A stretch of 64,000 nt of DNA, from the NCBI RefSeq assembly GCF_016403105.1, contig NZ_CP046155.1, forward strand, positions 1,674,001 through 1,738,000. Direction: 5' to 3'. The notes beneath the pieces are model-generated. The model ran no database searches and had not been told where the DNA came from. It saw only the letters and a program-made list of their open reading frames with translations. Every line of letters starts with the position of its first letter. The stretch's first letter is position 1. The DNA is from Leptolyngbya sp. BL0902 (GTDB lineage Bacteria > Cyanobacteriota > Cyanobacteriia > Phormidesmidales > Phormidesmidaceae). Position numbers and translations under genes: made by a program. Below are positions 31,401 through 58,692 of this stretch, piece after piece.

Positions 31401-32717
31401 TCCTACCTGTGCGACTCTAGCCTTACCTTTGTGCGCCAGCAGGCCACCCAAAAGGAAATCCAGCTCTCGACCCACATCCCGCCCAACCTGCCGGATCTGG
31501 TGGTGGATGAACTCCGCATTCGCCAGGTGTTGATTAACCTGCTGAACAACGCCGTGAAGTTTACCCCCAACGGTGGCCAGGTGTCGCTGACGGTGGAGGC
31601 CCAGCGGCAACCAGGAGCGGCGTGGATCACCTTTGCCGTCACCGATAGCGGCATTGGCATTGCCCCAGAGGCCATCGGCCAACTGTTCAAACCCTTTACG
31701 CAGATCGACAGCGCCCTCAACCGTCAATACACCGGAACGGGACTGGGACTGGCCCTAGTAAAGCAACTGGTGGATCTCCATGGCGGCACCGTCTTTGTTT
31801 CCAGTACCCTAGGCCGAGGCAGTTGCTTTACGGTGCGCTTGCCCTACGCTGCCGTGGCCCACACCGAAGATGCTCCTGCCCCCGCCCTGCCCGCCATTCC
31901 CGATGGGGCCACCGTGCTGATCGTTGAAGATATGCCCACCGCCGCCGCCCAAGTCAGCCGCTACCTGGAGGAACTGCATCTGCAACCCATCACCTGTACC
32001 CGCGCCGAAGAGGCGTTGGCCCTGGTTCAAACGCAGCGGCCCGCCCTGATCATCCTAGATTTGATGCTGCCCGATCTCCCCGGCACCGAAGTGCTGAGCC
32101 AGATCAAGGCCGACCCACGCACCCAAGACATTCCGGTGGTGATTACCTCGGTGCTCGACGAGCGATCCCAAAGTTTGGCCCTCGGAGCCTTTGATTACCT
32201 GGTCAAGCCCATTAGCCGATCCAGTCTGCACCAGGTGCTCGCCCGGTTGGGTCAAGGGGAATTCCGCCACGATGCATCGGGGGATGCGGCTCCAGCGGGG
32301 GCTACCCCAGGCTCCCTCCCCGCCGTTGCGGCCCCACCGACAACGCCCCGCATCCTGCTGGCCGAAGACAACCCAGCCAACGTCGCCACCCTGTCGAGCT
32401 ATCTCAGGCATCGGGGCTTTCAACTGGTGGTGGCCAGCAATGGCCAAGAGGCCGTTGATCGCTGTGCCACCGAAACCTTCGACCTGATTTTGATGGACAT
32501 TCAGATGCCGATTTTGGATGGCCTTGCCGCCATCCGCCAACTGCGGGCCATCCCCGCCACCGCCACCGTACCCATCGTTGCCCTCACCGCGTTAGCCATG
32601 GCCCATGATCGGGAAAACTGTATAGCAGCAGGAGCGAATGATTACCTCACCAAACCCGTTAGACTGAAATCTCTGGTGGACGTAATGCAGCGCCTTTTAG
32701 CGGAGACCCACCCATGA
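28401..32717 (+). CDS. CBS-cyanobacteriochrome hybrid histidine kinase
   Basis: 1438-residue soluble hybrid kinase. In order: four CBS motifs (about 16-80, 95-155, 163-220, 230-285), a coiled-coil linker, a cyanobacteriochrome-type GAF (about 335-495), three PAS domains (525-645, 655-770, 778-895), HisKA (ANMSHELRTP, His931), HATPase_c (NLLNNAVKFT, GTGLGL), and two receivers (Asp1220, Asp1366). The GAF has DPCF (DXCF, Cys405) and the usual YRFDADWNG and RANLVVPI segments, but at the canonical position reads Cys433-Tyr434 instead of Cys-His. Paired CBS domains commonly bind adenine nucleotides, so light and energy state might be integrated; this is inference. It overlaps the next kinase gene by four bases (ATGA). 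Confidence 0.9.
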   Translation: MASAFFIDPASLDLAVVRNPLMVAPETPLVEAIAAMTQTRQSCTLAATPASPLALAGEVSCILLVEADCLVGIVTERDLVRFSAEKMALAGKTVAEVMISPVITLAEGEFTDVFMAANLLRQHRIRHLPLVDEGGKVTGLITHESLQQLLRPVDLLRLRLVAEVMTGPVVCAPIQATVQEMAERMARQRISSVVIVESVGDRAIPVGLVTERDIVHLYALGLAFDQVQAQTVMGQMLVTVQPQDNLWDVNTLMKQHQVSRVVAVDETGQAVGIVTQTTLLETLNPLEIYRLVETLEARVSHLEAEKMALLEGRREKLEQQVQQRTQELESQASREHLVRDIATRIRSSLRLDSTLDAIVQEVREFLACDRTVVYRFDADWNGTVIAESVDPDWPTIQGRTIEDPCFKDRAVKLYQQGLKRAVDDIFHAGYPDCYIDTLTLYHVRANLVVPILVQDSLWGLLIGHQCSGPRHWHRADLNLLDDIAVQIALAIQQAELYEQGQRAMAALQDLNHELEARIERRTIELRNSEARLRRLFDQNPVGIAVSNLQGQITRVNNSLKTMLGYAEAELLDQSIYALLDDSTKAAQPWLEDLQDSTLSMTTREVTLRSAKRRRVWATLTSALILDAFGHPAEVIHLIEDISLRKQAEADLTRYAQEVEDLYNNAPCGYHSLDGEGRFVRINDTELKWLGYERREVIGRHINYFLTPKSQALFAESYPRFHQSGWVKDLDFELVAKDGTIFPVLLSSMAVRDAQGNYLYSRTTTFDMRDRKQVELALQESEEKFRQLAENIAGVFWMRDLAGNLLYVSPAYETLWQQSLDSLKARPISWLEAIHPEDLARMNSNVQENLAFDEEYRVTLPDGRVRWIHDRGFEVRNAEGRVYRLAGIAEDVTEQKQAAQKLQATNEQLILSNAELARATRLKDEFLANMSHELRTPLNAILGMTEGFQEQVFGPMTPEQRRSIATIERSGRHLLALINDILDLAKIESGKLTLQRAAVPVSYLCDSSLTFVRQQATQKEIQLSTHIPPNLPDLVVDELRIRQVLINLLNNAVKFTPNGGQVSLTVEAQRQPGAAWITFAVTDSGIGIAPEAIGQLFKPFTQIDSALNRQYTGTGLGLALVKQLVDLHGGTVFVSSTLGRGSCFTVRLPYAAVAHTEDAPAPALPAIPDGATVLIVEDMPTAAAQVSRYLEELHLQPITCTRAEEALALVQTQRPALIILDLMLPDLPGTEVLSQIKADPRTQDIPVVITSVLDERSQSLALGAFDYLVKPISRSSLHQVLARLGQGEFRHDASGDAAPAGATPGSLPAVAAPPTTPRILLAEDNPANVATLSSYLRHRGFQLVVASNGQEAVDRCATETFDLILMDIQMPILDGLAAIRQLRAIPATATVPIVALTALAMAHDRENCIAAGANDYLTKPVRLKSLVDVMQRLLAETHP

Positions 32718-41297: not shown

Positions 41298-41325
41298 GGG
41301 GTTTGGGGCGAAAGGACGGTGGATG

Positions 41326-41422
41326 GCCCTCACCCCCAGCCCCTCTCCCAGGGAGGAGAGGGAAGCCGGAAGGTTTTTCAAAGTCCCTCTCCCAACTTGG
41401 GAGAGGGATTTAGGGTGAGGGC
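41326..41422. repeat. Dispersed 97-bp cloverleaf-like repeat element
   Basis: Outer arms GCCCTCACCC (41326-41335) and GGGTGAGGGC (41413-41422) are perfect complements. Inside lie two further hairpins: CCCTCTCC/GGAGAGGG (41341-41362) and CCCTCTCCCAA/TTGGGAGAGGG (41385-41407). Elements of the type 'CCCTCACCCC-AGCCCCTCTCCC' are scattered in many bacterial genomes. This one sits between the FkbM gene and its upstream neighbour. Confidence 0.85.
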
Positions 41423-41463
41423 AAGGGACTGGGCAACTCACGAAGCATCTACACGCCAACCAC

Positions 41464-44400: not shown

Positions 44401-45144
44401 TGCCCCAGCGCCCGCCAGCGCCATGGCCGGAGGATCGCCTATCACCGCCCCCACCACATCCCCCTGGCTGAGGGAGGCCATGCGCTGGTTCAGTTCCTCC
44501 TGCCAGCGGGTGGGCACTTGGTTGAGGCGATCCTCCATGGAGGCCGTCAACCCTCGGCGGCTGGTGACAAGATCCACCCCAGCGGCCCGGTTGGCCACGC
44601 CCTTACTCAGCTTGGCAATGGGCCGCCCGACGGTGTTTTGCAAAATTTGCAGCAGCACCCAGCCCCAGCCCACATAGCGGAAGGCTTCACTCGTTGGCAA
44701 ATTCGTCACCGCCCCAAAGCCCACCACCATCGCCAGCAGGTGCCAGATGGACAGCACCGTCAAAATCGGCACGCCTAGGTAGGGCATGGCCCCCAAAAAG
44801 CTGAACAGCAAGGGCGCATAGGCCGCCCCCAACACAATCACAATGGCGCTAGGGGGTACCGAAACCGTCCCCGGCAGCAGGGTAAGGAGCCAGGTGCTTA
44901 GCCCCAGGGCCAAAAAACCGCCCGTAAACAGCAGGGCATTGATCAGCAGGCTAATCGCAAACCGGGAGCGCTTCACTTCGTTGAGGAACAGCACCACGCT
45001 CTGGCCAATGCCCTGGGAAATCCCCGCCAGCAGCACAATCACCAGGGCAAAGGTCTGCCCGTGGGGCACCGTGGTGGCAATCCGAAAGGCCTCCCCATTC
45101 AGGGCAAAAATGTAGCCCAGCACTTCCCAAATGCGATCCATCAT
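41464..45144 (-). CDS. Giant membrane protein with alpha/beta-hydrolase-like core
   Basis: 1226 residues from the ATG at 45144 (GAGGAA lies eight bases upstream). The N-terminal 400 residues contain about seven hydrophobic helices resembling a Yip1-type bundle. A central region has VVYLDGIGKS near its start and VTFIGYSGGGQMSCACGPYL, a GxSxG nucleophile elbow as in alpha/beta hydrolases, followed by VDVISLGGVMS. The last 450 residues are soluble and end with a segment containing GDGTGGTFVGPSNNCSQDSN, which I associate with uncharacterised cyanobacterial proteins. No Ser-Asp-His triad could be completed with certainty. An esterase, lipase or acyltransferase acting at the membrane is plausible. 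Downstream on the same strand is an FkbM methyltransferase. Confidence 0.75.
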   Translation of the reverse strand: MMDRIWEVLGYIFALNGEAFRIATTVPHGQTFALVIVLLAGISQGIGQSVVLFLNEVKRSRFAISLLINALLFTGGFLALGLSTWLLTLLPGTVSVPPSAIVIVLGAAYAPLLFSFLGAMPYLGVPILTVLSIWHLLAMVVGFGAVTNLPTSEAFRYVGWGWVLLQILQNTVGRPIAKLSKGVANRAAGVDLVTSRRGLTASMEDRLNQVPTRWQEELNQRMASLSQGDVVGAVIGDPPAMALAGAGATVSGGRLPTADGTASQERSWSATVKAVLGVVAMVLLTLLMLVLLRPLRQWWFGWFATFPDPVQWVLNLLWVGIVALVVAGLLAPLETLGWWAGWYEDDVNTTVNAGELAQAPASDQPFSRYVVYLDGIGKSTFEYLPDIEEFLDTLAPTLPPDVALVRGIMPYSVMNAPLDEDRPLAFLWRFADKLRFANPMSVLGLLVNIRNVLIVGVSADRRYGPLYNQGMAQVVYNGLIKNGYPLESGIPVTFIGYSGGGQMSCACGPYLKRALGAPVDVISLGGVMSANIDLLKLEHLYHLVGEKDVVERIGPKMFPGRWRIFPLSYWNRAKRRGKISIIPMGPVGHQVPGGILDPNLILEDGRSSLQQTIDTINAIVKGDLVLGDDLVNQRKPSHYDLFRASPLVQFQSYPLNQRPDPSRYVPIADWVGRLILPAKAGRFGGVYYEIHQAPAEHTDLIGQVVKLRWAEDPLVQQFVQAATHDVHFSADVEYSSRQSGAIHPVRVNHWLRVDPLESLAGSLPDDEMIVAVEDPQVQRETNGITLRIRWQPMEVTGRYYGLVQFVAPVAGTDRFQVRHFNRVSRAFDGPTEEVRVPKPSHLDLYGSDPSTSAGIEQSPYNEQGWYIYGAPDAAGIFVVQAWGPRSLFRLQPERVVFGGAKGAYRYIRKESWADVANQKGKVGSVLCTHRDNGRPEAISEAIDEWQVGDRALLLHTYGGIGGEKKEPAAFSPIFFGHFAYGRAEVVHDPLADERRFEIRYYQVYAHNVDGLIAGTIHWSRYQGDRQRGWLGNRPTCDILVKLDAFSRTYDFDRARMSPLVRMEAHLQAMTARYRIGDGTGGTFVGPSNNCSQDSNQALFASMQGLVQGVKGYQAELQDWAERHPDQAQDFDRMIALGQSLKRALQPFGNTRPDWERNEFNLGSSLEDDPLRNLLMGLGSWRTVLPRKASDVVVQQFLKSGASAWVLRTSQIGGYDPTIEPIAPMTF

Positions 45145-56456: not shown

Positions 56457-56894
56457 GTGAACGCAGCAGAACAGGCCAACAGCATCGAGTTTGCCAGCAA
56501 AATCGCCACCGTAGTCGGGCTGTTTAAGGGCGAATTCCCCGACCTGCGGGTGGATCTCAAACCCTGGGCCAATGATCGGGAAACCCGCGACCTCGTCGAT
56601 CCCGATTCTATTGACCTGGGGTTTCACTTTCCGGGGGTGAGCCGTCTGTTTCGCTGCCGCAGCCTGCTGGTGCAAATTCGCCTCCACCCCGACCCCGATA
56701 CCGAAGAACGGCGCGTCATCGGCCTAGAGGTGGCCGGGTTCGACCATCGCGGCAAACAATGGACGCTTTCCACCATCGACAACTGGGCCTTTTCGGGCAG
56801 TCTTTCCCCAGATCCCACCTGCGGCGAACGCCTCAAACAATGCTGCCGCCAAACCCTAGCGCTTTTTTCTAACTCCCCCGATGCGGCACAATAG
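56457..56894 (+). CDS. Conserved hypothetical protein
   Basis: 145 residues from a GTG at 56457; no better start is seen. The sequence (FKGEFPDLRVDLKPWANDRETRDLVDPDSIDLGF in part, then RLFRCRSLLVQIRLH and GLEVAGFDHRGKQW) looks like a compact soluble alpha/beta protein with several cysteines (FRCRS, TCGERLKQCC). I recall similar cyanobacterial hypothetical proteins but no function. It has its own upstream Pho-box-like motif and is followed 35 bp later by the repeat-variant gene. Confidence 0.7.
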   Translation: MNAAEQANSIEFASKIATVVGLFKGEFPDLRVDLKPWANDRETRDLVDPDSIDLGFHFPGVSRLFRCRSLLVQIRLHPDPDTEERRVIGLEVAGFDHRGKQWTLSTIDNWAFSGSLSPDPTCGERLKQCCRQTLALFSNSPDAAQ

Positions 56895-56922
56895 CGTTCT
56901 CATTCTTCTTCCAAGGAGAACG
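56895..56922 (+). promoter_or_regulatory. Shine-Dalgarno-sequestering inverted repeat
   Basis: CGTTCTC (56895-56901) pairs with GAGAACG (56916-56922). The right arm contains part of the ribosome-binding site AAGGAG (56913-56918) of the gene at 56930, so the hairpin would hide it. Confidence 0.5.
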
Positions 56923-56929
56923 AATAGAT

Positions 56930-57907
56930 ATGATCAATCTTCAAAATCTTCAGGATATATTGAGCGATCCCAAGATTGATGAGGCCGTCTTGAGTGAAAA
57001 TCAAGACTTCTTTACAGAGTTATGCCAACATAGTCCAGGTCATATATTAAGAGACCAGTATTTACCTGCTCCGTGGCAAGCATGGCTAGCTCGACATCCT
57101 AGCGTAGAATTGCGCCAATCTACGGCGAACAACCCTTGTTTGCTCAGAGAAATCATAGAACGGCTTGCGAAGGACGATGATGCTGGCGTCCGTGATGCAG
57201 TGGCGGGAAACTTAAATACTCCCCCAGAAATTTTGAGTCAGTTAGCTACAGACCATGTTCGGAATGTACGCCTCCATGTTGCTCGTCATCGGCAAACTTC
57301 CAGCGACACACTGCTAGGCTTGATGCAAGACCCATTATGGGAGGTACGCAGAAATGTGGCTTGCCACCTCAATACTCCGGTGGAAGGATTGATTCACTTA
57401 GCCCACGATTCAGATTGGCGCGTTCGCCATTGTATTGCTGAACATACCAAGACTCCCGAAACTCTTCTGATAAGACTCGCCCAAGATGTTGATTCACAAA
57501 CTCGCTGCGCTGCGGTAGCCAACTCCCGATTTCCGTTGAGTCACTTAATCCACCTAGCGAAGAGTGAAGACCTTTGGCTACGTCGAGGGGTAGCTCGTAA
57601 TCGTTGTGCCCCTGAATTTCTCTTAATTCATCTGGCTCAGGACAGAGATGAGTCGGTTCTCTACGACGTTGCTGGCAATCCTAATACGCCCGCAAAAATA
57701 CTATCTGATTTATCCCAAGTTTTTGTTGTAAGTATTCTGGTGCAAGTTGCCAAAAACCCTAACACTCCAGGTAGCGCCTTAGCGCAACTGGCTCACATCA
57801 ACGATGTCGCTACCTTAGCTAACGTTGCCACTCACCCTAATGCCTCTAAGGAAGTACGCCAACTAGCCTTAGAGAAAAAAGCATATCTATCGAGGGATTA
57901 TCTATAG
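56930..57907 (+). CDS. Leucine-rich-repeat-variant (LRV/HEAT-like) protein
   Basis: 325 residues built of about ten 24-residue helical repeats with the pattern NPNTPPEIL--LA-D-d--VR--VA (for example NLNTPPEILSQLATDH, HLNTPVEGLIHLAHDS, NPNTPAKILSDLSQ, HPNASKEVRQLAL). This is the leucine-rich repeat variant family, seen in many bacteria, often as stand-alone proteins, where it forms a protein-binding superhelix. There is no signal peptide, membrane segment or catalytic domain. The gene is much richer in A/T than its neighbours and uses A/T-ending codons, suggesting recent acquisition. It is bounded upstream by a hairpin over its ribosome-binding site and downstream by a nested palindrome. Confidence 0.85.
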   Translation: MINLQNLQDILSDPKIDEAVLSENQDFFTELCQHSPGHILRDQYLPAPWQAWLARHPSVELRQSTANNPCLLREIIERLAKDDDAGVRDAVAGNLNTPPEILSQLATDHVRNVRLHVARHRQTSSDTLLGLMQDPLWEVRRNVACHLNTPVEGLIHLAHDSDWRVRHCIAEHTKTPETLLIRLAQDVDSQTRCAAVANSRFPLSHLIHLAKSEDLWLRRGVARNRCAPEFLLIHLAQDRDESVLYDVAGNPNTPAKILSDLSQVFVVSILVQVAKNPNTPGSALAQLAHINDVATLANVATHPNASKEVRQLALEKKAYLSRDYL

Positions 57908-58003
57908 CCGTTTTGCTCCAGATAAGCTTGAAGAAAGCGCTAAGAACCTTGACTTGCAGGTTGCCCAGATTAAGGTGCAGCTTATTGGTCAAAAACGGCT
58001 ATA
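57903..58003. repeat. 101-bp nested palindromic element
   Basis: Outer arms TATAGCCGTTTT (57903-57914) and AAAACGGCTATA (57992-58003) are perfect complements; inner arms ATAAGCT (57922-57928) and AGCTTAT (57979-57985) nest inside, and AACCT/AGGTT near 57945-57960 can form a further hairpin. The left arm includes the stop codon of the repeat-variant gene. A MITE-like remnant or a structured 3' end are the two readings. Confidence 0.7.
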
Positions 58004-58023
58004 TCTGGTCAGGTCAGGCAGCG

Positions 58024-58692
58024 TTATGCCATTGAGGAAGAGTTTTCTTCGTCCTCATCATCGCCAGCAAGGAGAATTTCAGCGCTGTCTAAAAAGAGAC
58101 CTTCATCGGTTATGGCCACACCGCCGATGCTGAGGCTGTCTGTGGTTTGAGCGATGCGGGCGGCTCCGAGGGCATCGGTTCCGGCCCCGGCGGTGTAGAG
58201 GACGTTGCCCCCGGCCTCCAGTTGTTCAGCGATGTCGGCCTTGATCACCTCGCGGATGAGCTGGGCTCCGGCGGCGGCGAGGGCGGCTTCGAGTTGTTCC
58301 ACCCAGGTGTGTTCAATCACGGCAATAATCGCCGAGGTATTGGGCTGAAGGGCCGATCCCAAGTCCTTCATTTCGGCCTTAAGGGGAGCGCTGCGGAGTT
58401 TGCCCACCAGCGCCCCAATCACGCCGCCCCCAGCGGCCACGGCCACCGCCGGAGGAGCCAACACCAAGCCGATCAGGCCGCCGACCACACCGCCCGTCAT
58501 TAGCCCTTTGCGGCTGCGGCGTTTGGCGTCGGTAATTTTGAGCTTGCCCTCGGCGTTTTTGACCACCACGGCGGCATCTATGATGCCGATCAGGCCATCC
58601 CGTTTTCCTTGCTTAATGTCTTCCATCACGAGGCCAGCGCCATCCACGCTGTTAAAGGCGGCCACAATGACCTGTACGGGGCTTTCACTCAT
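58024..58692 (-). CDS. DUF1269-family protein
   Basis: 222 residues starting MSESPVQVIVAAFNSVDGAG with GGAGA upstream. The sequence follows DUF1269: a beta-alpha-beta N-terminus (AAFNSVDGAGLVMEDIKQGK, VVVKNAEGKLKI), a central glycine-rich hydrophobic hairpin (GLMTGGVVGGLIGLVLAPPAVAVAAG), and a C-terminal half with AIIAVIEHTWVEQLEAAL. The acidic Ser-rich end is variable. Such proteins are membrane-associated and of unknown role, sometimes linked with stress responses. Divergent from the ABC-F gene. Confidence 0.82.
   Translation of the reverse strand: MSESPVQVIVAAFNSVDGAGLVMEDIKQGKRDGLIGIIDAAVVVKNAEGKLKITDAKRRSRKGLMTGGVVGGLIGLVLAPPAVAVAAGGGVIGALVGKLRSAPLKAEMKDLGSALQPNTSAIIAVIEHTWVEQLEAALAAAGAQLIREVIKADIAEQLEAGGNVLYTAGAGTDALGAARIAQTTDSLSIGGVAITDEGLFLDSAEILLAGDDEDEENSSSMA

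Follow-up and report, generated by a model that had tools for sequence, protein, structure and literature searches.

The window, by which we mean the whole stretch of 64,000 nucleotides (64 kb) that was analysed, sits on the main contig of the Leptolyngbya sp. BL0902 genome (4.71 Mb). In it, an AT-rich gene encoding a leucine-rich repeat variant (LRV)/HEAT-repeat protein converges with a gene encoding a DUF1269 protein. A palindrome takes up most of the 116-bp gap between the two genes (57908-58023), together with the stop codon of the LRV gene (Table 1). The AT-rich composition stops at the palindrome. The original prediction had assigned the stop codon of the repeat-variant gene to the left arm of the palindrome, and the open reading frame indeed terminates at a TAG within that arm.

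Table 1. Positions of the palindrome, its arms and the neighbouring genes in the window.
Feature	Position	Strand	Basis
Whole palindromic element, 101 bp	57903..58003	.	IS630-type ends TATAGCCGTTTT...AAAACGGCTATA
Left outer arm, 12 bp, TATAGCCGTTTT	57903..57914	+	Inverted-repeat scan
Right outer arm, 12 bp, AAAACGGCTATA	57992..58003	-	Perfect complement of left outer arm
Left inner arm, ATAAGCT	57922..57928	+	Sequence; paired in - strand fold
Right inner arm, AGCTTAT on + strand	57979..57985	-	Sequence; paired in - strand fold
LRV/HEAT-repeat protein gene, 325 aa, AT-rich	56930..57907	+	Pfam PF01816, E 2.4e-29
TAG stop codon of LRV gene, within left outer arm	57905..57907	+	Sequence, ORF list
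DUF1269 protein gene, 222 aa, convergent neighbour	58024..58692	-	Pfam PF06897, E 1.4e-13; present in genus relatives

The inverted-repeat scan showed outer arms that are 100% complementary and 77 nt apart. Both the scan and the sequence agreed with the plan proposed earlier, in which perfect 12-bp outer arms and perfect 7-bp inner arms are separated by spacers of 7 bases on the left (57915-57921) and 6 bases on the right (57986-57991). Within the spacers, CCA (57918-57920) pairs with TGG (57986-57988); what stays unpaired is a 3x3 internal loop and one bulged G (57921). Because these spacer bases also pair, the arms extend as imperfect repeats of ~26 and ~25 nt, and BLAST against the own genome aligned arm to arm with 85% identity. 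Perfect inverted repeats with arms of at least 12 bp and a spacer of 3-100 occurred three times in the 64-kb window, compared with a mean of 0.42 and a maximum of 2 in 100 dinucleotide shuffles of the same window. The palindrome is thus above the chance level, though not by a very wide margin, and a 12-bp palindrome is not extraordinary by itself. The other two perfect 12-bp inverted repeats lie at 31758-31831 (spacer 50) and 44429-44536 (spacer 84), and their ends are not TATAG.

RNA folding had been suggested as a check of the structure, and the palindrome proved unusually stable on both strands, with z of -3.76 on the + strand and -4.49 on the - strand, and for neither strand did any of the 200 shuffles reach the same stability. 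We also scanned 2556 stretches of 101 nt on the + strand with 30 shuffles each. One stretch was at or below -4.61, the z of the palindrome in the same script, and five reached the separately computed z of -3.76. The nested inner hairpin that had been drawn was found in the - strand fold; in the + strand minimum-energy fold, however, the outer arms were paired and the inner-arm helix was absent. The palindrome may be a structured 3' untranslated element. The most stable fold of all 2556 stretches (z -6.6) belonged to a different place in the window, 41320-41430, which holds a long palindrome of the form CCCTCACCCCCAGCCCCTCTCCC...GGGAGAGGG...AGGGTGAGGGC. A similar stretch, CCTCACCCC, was seen within TATAGC palindromes of another cyanobacterial genome (G380).

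No terminator-like site was detected in 57700-58400 (shuffle mean 0.8), in agreement with the T-tract having been noted as missing, and an intrinsic terminator, that is a compact G+C-rich hairpin followed by a T-tract, was rejected on this result. The Rfam 15 covariance models gave no match up to E 1 in 57600-58300.

We examined the distribution of the flanking genes among relatives. At a threshold of E 1e-15 the LRV gene was detected in 9 of 192 relatives, own genome counted, whereas the 25 other genomes of the genus that were searched all lacked it. The nearest relative found, from another family (G083), showed 43% identity and a length of 326 aa against 325 aa here. Since the gene is missing from the 25 genus genomes and its nearest relative is only 43% identical and belongs to another family, horizontal acquisition is likely. 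The matching lengths also argue that the stop codon in the arm falls at the natural end of the protein. No palindrome lay behind the LRV gene of G083 in the downstream sequence read.

When the element was removed in silico, with TA or TATA left once, the LRV frame extended to 373 or 368 aa and entered DNA antisense to the DUF1269 gene, with no stop nearby. This result does not support a clean insertion between the flanks as they now stand. Five genus relatives searched for an empty site yielded none; the DUF1269 gene was kept in them, but none of the window genes from its left was beside it, and so the element sits at a variable junction. TATA is present at both borders of the element, where a duplicated TA target looks identical to a palindromic end.

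The original prediction had proposed a search for further copies, and none was found. In the own-genome BLAST only the element itself rose above noise, the remaining matches being its arms to each other or 14-mers. The end pattern TATAGCNGTTTT occurred four times in the own genome, twice as the arms of the element, and the reversed control occurred nine times. Among 63 genomes of the order, both arm patterns with at most two mismatches were found in the own genome only. The exact arm pair had no match in genome_contigs, a collection that may omit records of very near genomes, and none in viral_contigs; a single-arm match in genome_contigs came from a Flavobacteriales MAG (L158). The plasmid search with the element returned nothing. 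We rejected two sets of candidate relatives. The best matches among 96 relatives, identical over 23 of 23 bases and located in G083, G080 and G059, fall within coding DNA that reads VKNGYIWNF and were treated as unrelated. The phage search gave three weak matches (E 0.3), all at features with the annotation mobile element protein; for the two phage records that were read, the match fell inside this transposase-like coding sequence, and we attribute the matches to chance. The element thus has no close relative in any collection searched and is single-copy in its genome. It was not found in print in the literature searched, which covers a minority of the subscription journals. Papers matching the end sequences as text were unrelated by title and abstract, apart from one on Planktothrix, in which the match stands in a CRISPR spacer table.

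To compare the ends with those of IS630 elements, we read the IS630 loci (PF13358) of the host and of other cyanobacteria. The host has eight family matches in all, of which five are near-identical copies of ~0.95 kb (L159-L163, all on G000:C1) with TATAGTTGAT at both ends (5 of 5 loci aligned), and two others (L164 and L165) carry an internal stop codon. The host IS630 ends begin TATAGT and the palindrome begins TATAGC, so that they differ beyond TATAG. The IS630 family model was also searched in seven other cyanobacterial genomes and 30 loci were read. Loci with recognisable end pairs started with TATAGC in four of these genomes (G184, G387, G434 and G212), with examples such as TATAGCGGGTTTCAGTTGAATGAGGT and TATAGCGTTTCTCAGAGTTGTGAGGT at 0.97-1.08 kb, while the loci of G420 and one in G434 started with TACAG and several had no clear end pair. 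The outer ends of the palindrome, with TATAGC on both sides, are therefore like those of IS630, as expected of an IS630-type MITE. An autonomous partner with matching terminal inverted repeats, as for type I MITEs, was not present among the IS630 loci read; a BLAST comparison between the element and these loci gave 11-mers only, and no long ORF for a partner transposase lay between the end pairs in L082.

Short palindromes with such ends were found elsewhere in cyanobacteria. Paired ends TATAGCNGTTTT...AAAACNGCTATA, 65-95 nt apart, occurred in 14 of 386 cyanobacterial genomes, own included, and the reversed control in 0 of 386; this is not a blind test, since the TATAGCNGTTTT pattern was picked after the element had been seen and with knowledge of a TATAGCGGTTTTCA repeat. 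These palindromes span 91-116 bp. Paired ends TATAGCCGT...ACGGCTATA occurred at eight places in 6 of 388 genomes, own included, a count that is not above chance by itself because the reversed control matched in 5 of 388. The TATAGCCGT elements nevertheless look real, because two copies each are present in G357 and G500, one element is common to G539 and G357, and an inner TTAGGACA on both arms is common to G500, G530 and G570, which come from three families. These palindromes measure 95-116 bp (L197 in G539, L198 in G570, L199 and L202 in G500, L200 in G530, L201 and L203 in G357). The TATAGCCGT-ended palindromes, several with the inner TTAGGACA block, are likely IS630-type MITE families. No ORF of at least 150 aa crossed any of the 22 palindromes of both kinds, own element counted, and 2 of the 22 (own element and L072) gave the stop codon to an ORF of at least 80 aa.

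The present element joins both end kinds in TATAGCCGTTTT, matching the TATAGCNGTTTT kind in 11 of 12 outer bases and the TATAGCCGT kind in 9 of 9. It resembles both in length (101 bp against 91-116 bp), intergenic place and TA borders. However, base 7 is C in the present element, whereas the TATAGCNGTTTT kind has G or A there (T in single arms), and the inner blocks of the other palindromes, RTRAGGTAC and TTAGGACA, were not recognised in it. Several palindromes of the two kinds recur within one genome, whereas the present element does not.

We compared the inner arms with the IS630-type class by two profiles, both of which left out the own element (L069, L085 and L091) and near-identical arms. 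With the profile of 19 non-redundant arms, P was 0.35 for the left and 0.72 for the right arm when ungapped, and 0.63 and 0.11 when gapped. The profile of 24 arms, which was scored on positions picked by information content and also left out IS630 loci L167, L190, L177 and L173 (ends of other kinds), assigned the left arm a P of 0.14, rising to 0.27 with two registers, and the right arm, given a chosen one-base gap, a P of 0.03 (0.05). In all, P ranged from 0.03 to 0.72 with arm and gap, giving no clear sign of membership, and the likeness of the inner arms to the class is not significant. ATAAGCT stands in the same register as ATRAGGT of the class; this was noticed post hoc and is not counted as evidence.

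Taken together, the palindrome is real and ordinary, and we read it as a solitary, probably worn, non-autonomous IS630-type (Tc1/mariner) MITE-like element, or a remnant of one, between convergent genes (probability about 0.6). The main evidence for this reading is that the ends resemble IS630 ends, and the element is also short, bounded by terminal inverted repeats and devoid of coding capacity, as MITEs are. The MITE-like nature suggested in the original prediction thus gains support from the TATAGC ends, shared with IS630 and with palindromes of ~100 bp, but not by further copies in the genome. We infer that the element, with its imperfect ~25/26-bp terminal inverted repeats, no gene of its own and TA on both borders, was once moved by transposition into TA by a transposase supplied from elsewhere, and that it has since worn. 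A transcript from either side would then form a long imperfect hairpin, which could protect the transcript 3' end or be cut in it. Both this RNA hairpin and the stop codon of the LRV gene would be supplied incidentally by the element; as TATAG holds TAG, IS630-type ends of this sort can supply the stop codon of a gene. The assignment extends to the kind, short IS630-ended palindromes, and not to a family: the single copy, the lack of a partner and the inner-arm results argue against regarding membership of any named MITE family as proven.

The strongest alternative is that the palindrome arose by chance, or evolved locally as the structured 3' end of the two convergent genes (an RNA stability hairpin or a factor-dependent end), with no transposon history. 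We consider this rather unlikely, though it has to be weighed seriously. It would agree with the single copy in everything searched, the 0.42 perfect 12-bp inverted repeats expected per 64 kb, the strong fold on both strands, the inner arms that are not significantly IS630-like, and the convergent position, in which neither gene has another terminator-like site. However, it leaves the IS630-type TATAGC at the outer border on both sides to coincidence, as well as the fit of 11 of 12 end bases to a paired-end pattern with no match in its control, and the features of an intrinsic terminator and any Rfam match are absent.

Joint arrival of palindrome and gene, with the palindrome as the border (a MITE end pair or a recombination site at the junction) of a unit that imported the LRV gene, appears improbable. 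The AT-rich stretch ends at the palindrome, all 25 other genus genomes searched lack the gene, and the present right flank offers no early stop once the element is removed, all of which would suit such a unit. Against it, no matching repeat lies at the left edge, where 56700-57000 and 57880-58060 share 9-mers at longest; no palindrome follows the gene in the nearest LRV relative found, and integron-type core sites are absent. More doubtful still is a single-gene mobile unit of which the palindrome would be the working border, an IS630-like end pair having captured or delivered the LRV gene and now providing both its stop and its 3' end. An integron attC site is built of a stem, a 3x3 loop and an inner stem with a bulged base. 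The palindrome resembles this plan (an R-like stem on the outside, a 3x3 spacer left unpaired, an inner stem that carries a single extrahelical G, and the stop in the arm), but as the attC site of a gene cassette it is highly improbable and was rejected, since the core motifs RYYYAAC and GTTRRRY are absent from 57880-58030, and likewise from 56850-56960, on both strands.

As one solitary case of the short IS630-ended palindromes, the element carries little weight alone. The two kinds of these palindromes in cyanobacteria, TATAGCNGTTTT and TATAGCCGT, are open to cataloguing. Were the element to mark the border of the acquired gene, it would be relevant to the entry of single genes into such genomes.

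As a solitary IS630-type MITE-like element, the palindrome can be set beside known systems. RUP of Streptococcus pneumoniae is described as a 107-bp element that is presumably mobilised by an IS630 transposase and is linked to IS630-Spn1 and TA targets (PMC2229807). The RNA hairpins of Correia elements in Neisseria are described as cleaved by RNase III (PMC10969869), and by analogy this points to a possible RNA role for the palindrome. Like RUP and the Correia MITEs, the present element is ~100 bp, non-coding, intergenic and bounded by terminal inverted repeats; RUP and Correia elements are many-copy, whereas it is single-copy and its partner is not demonstrated. MITEs of 77-541 bp are given for Anabaena sp. 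90 (PMC3542288). In Synechocystis, the IS630-family element ISY100 targets TA almost exclusively, duplicates the TA on insertion and has 24-bp imperfect inverted repeats (PMC2170065), and would illustrate by analogy the mechanism open to such ends. Unlike the cyanobacterial IS630 elements, the present element has no transposase gene, and its end diverges from that of the host IS630 after TATAG. Nevertheless it shares with ISY100 and the 0.95-kb host IS630 the TATAG start, imperfect inverted repeats of ~24-26 bp and TA borders.
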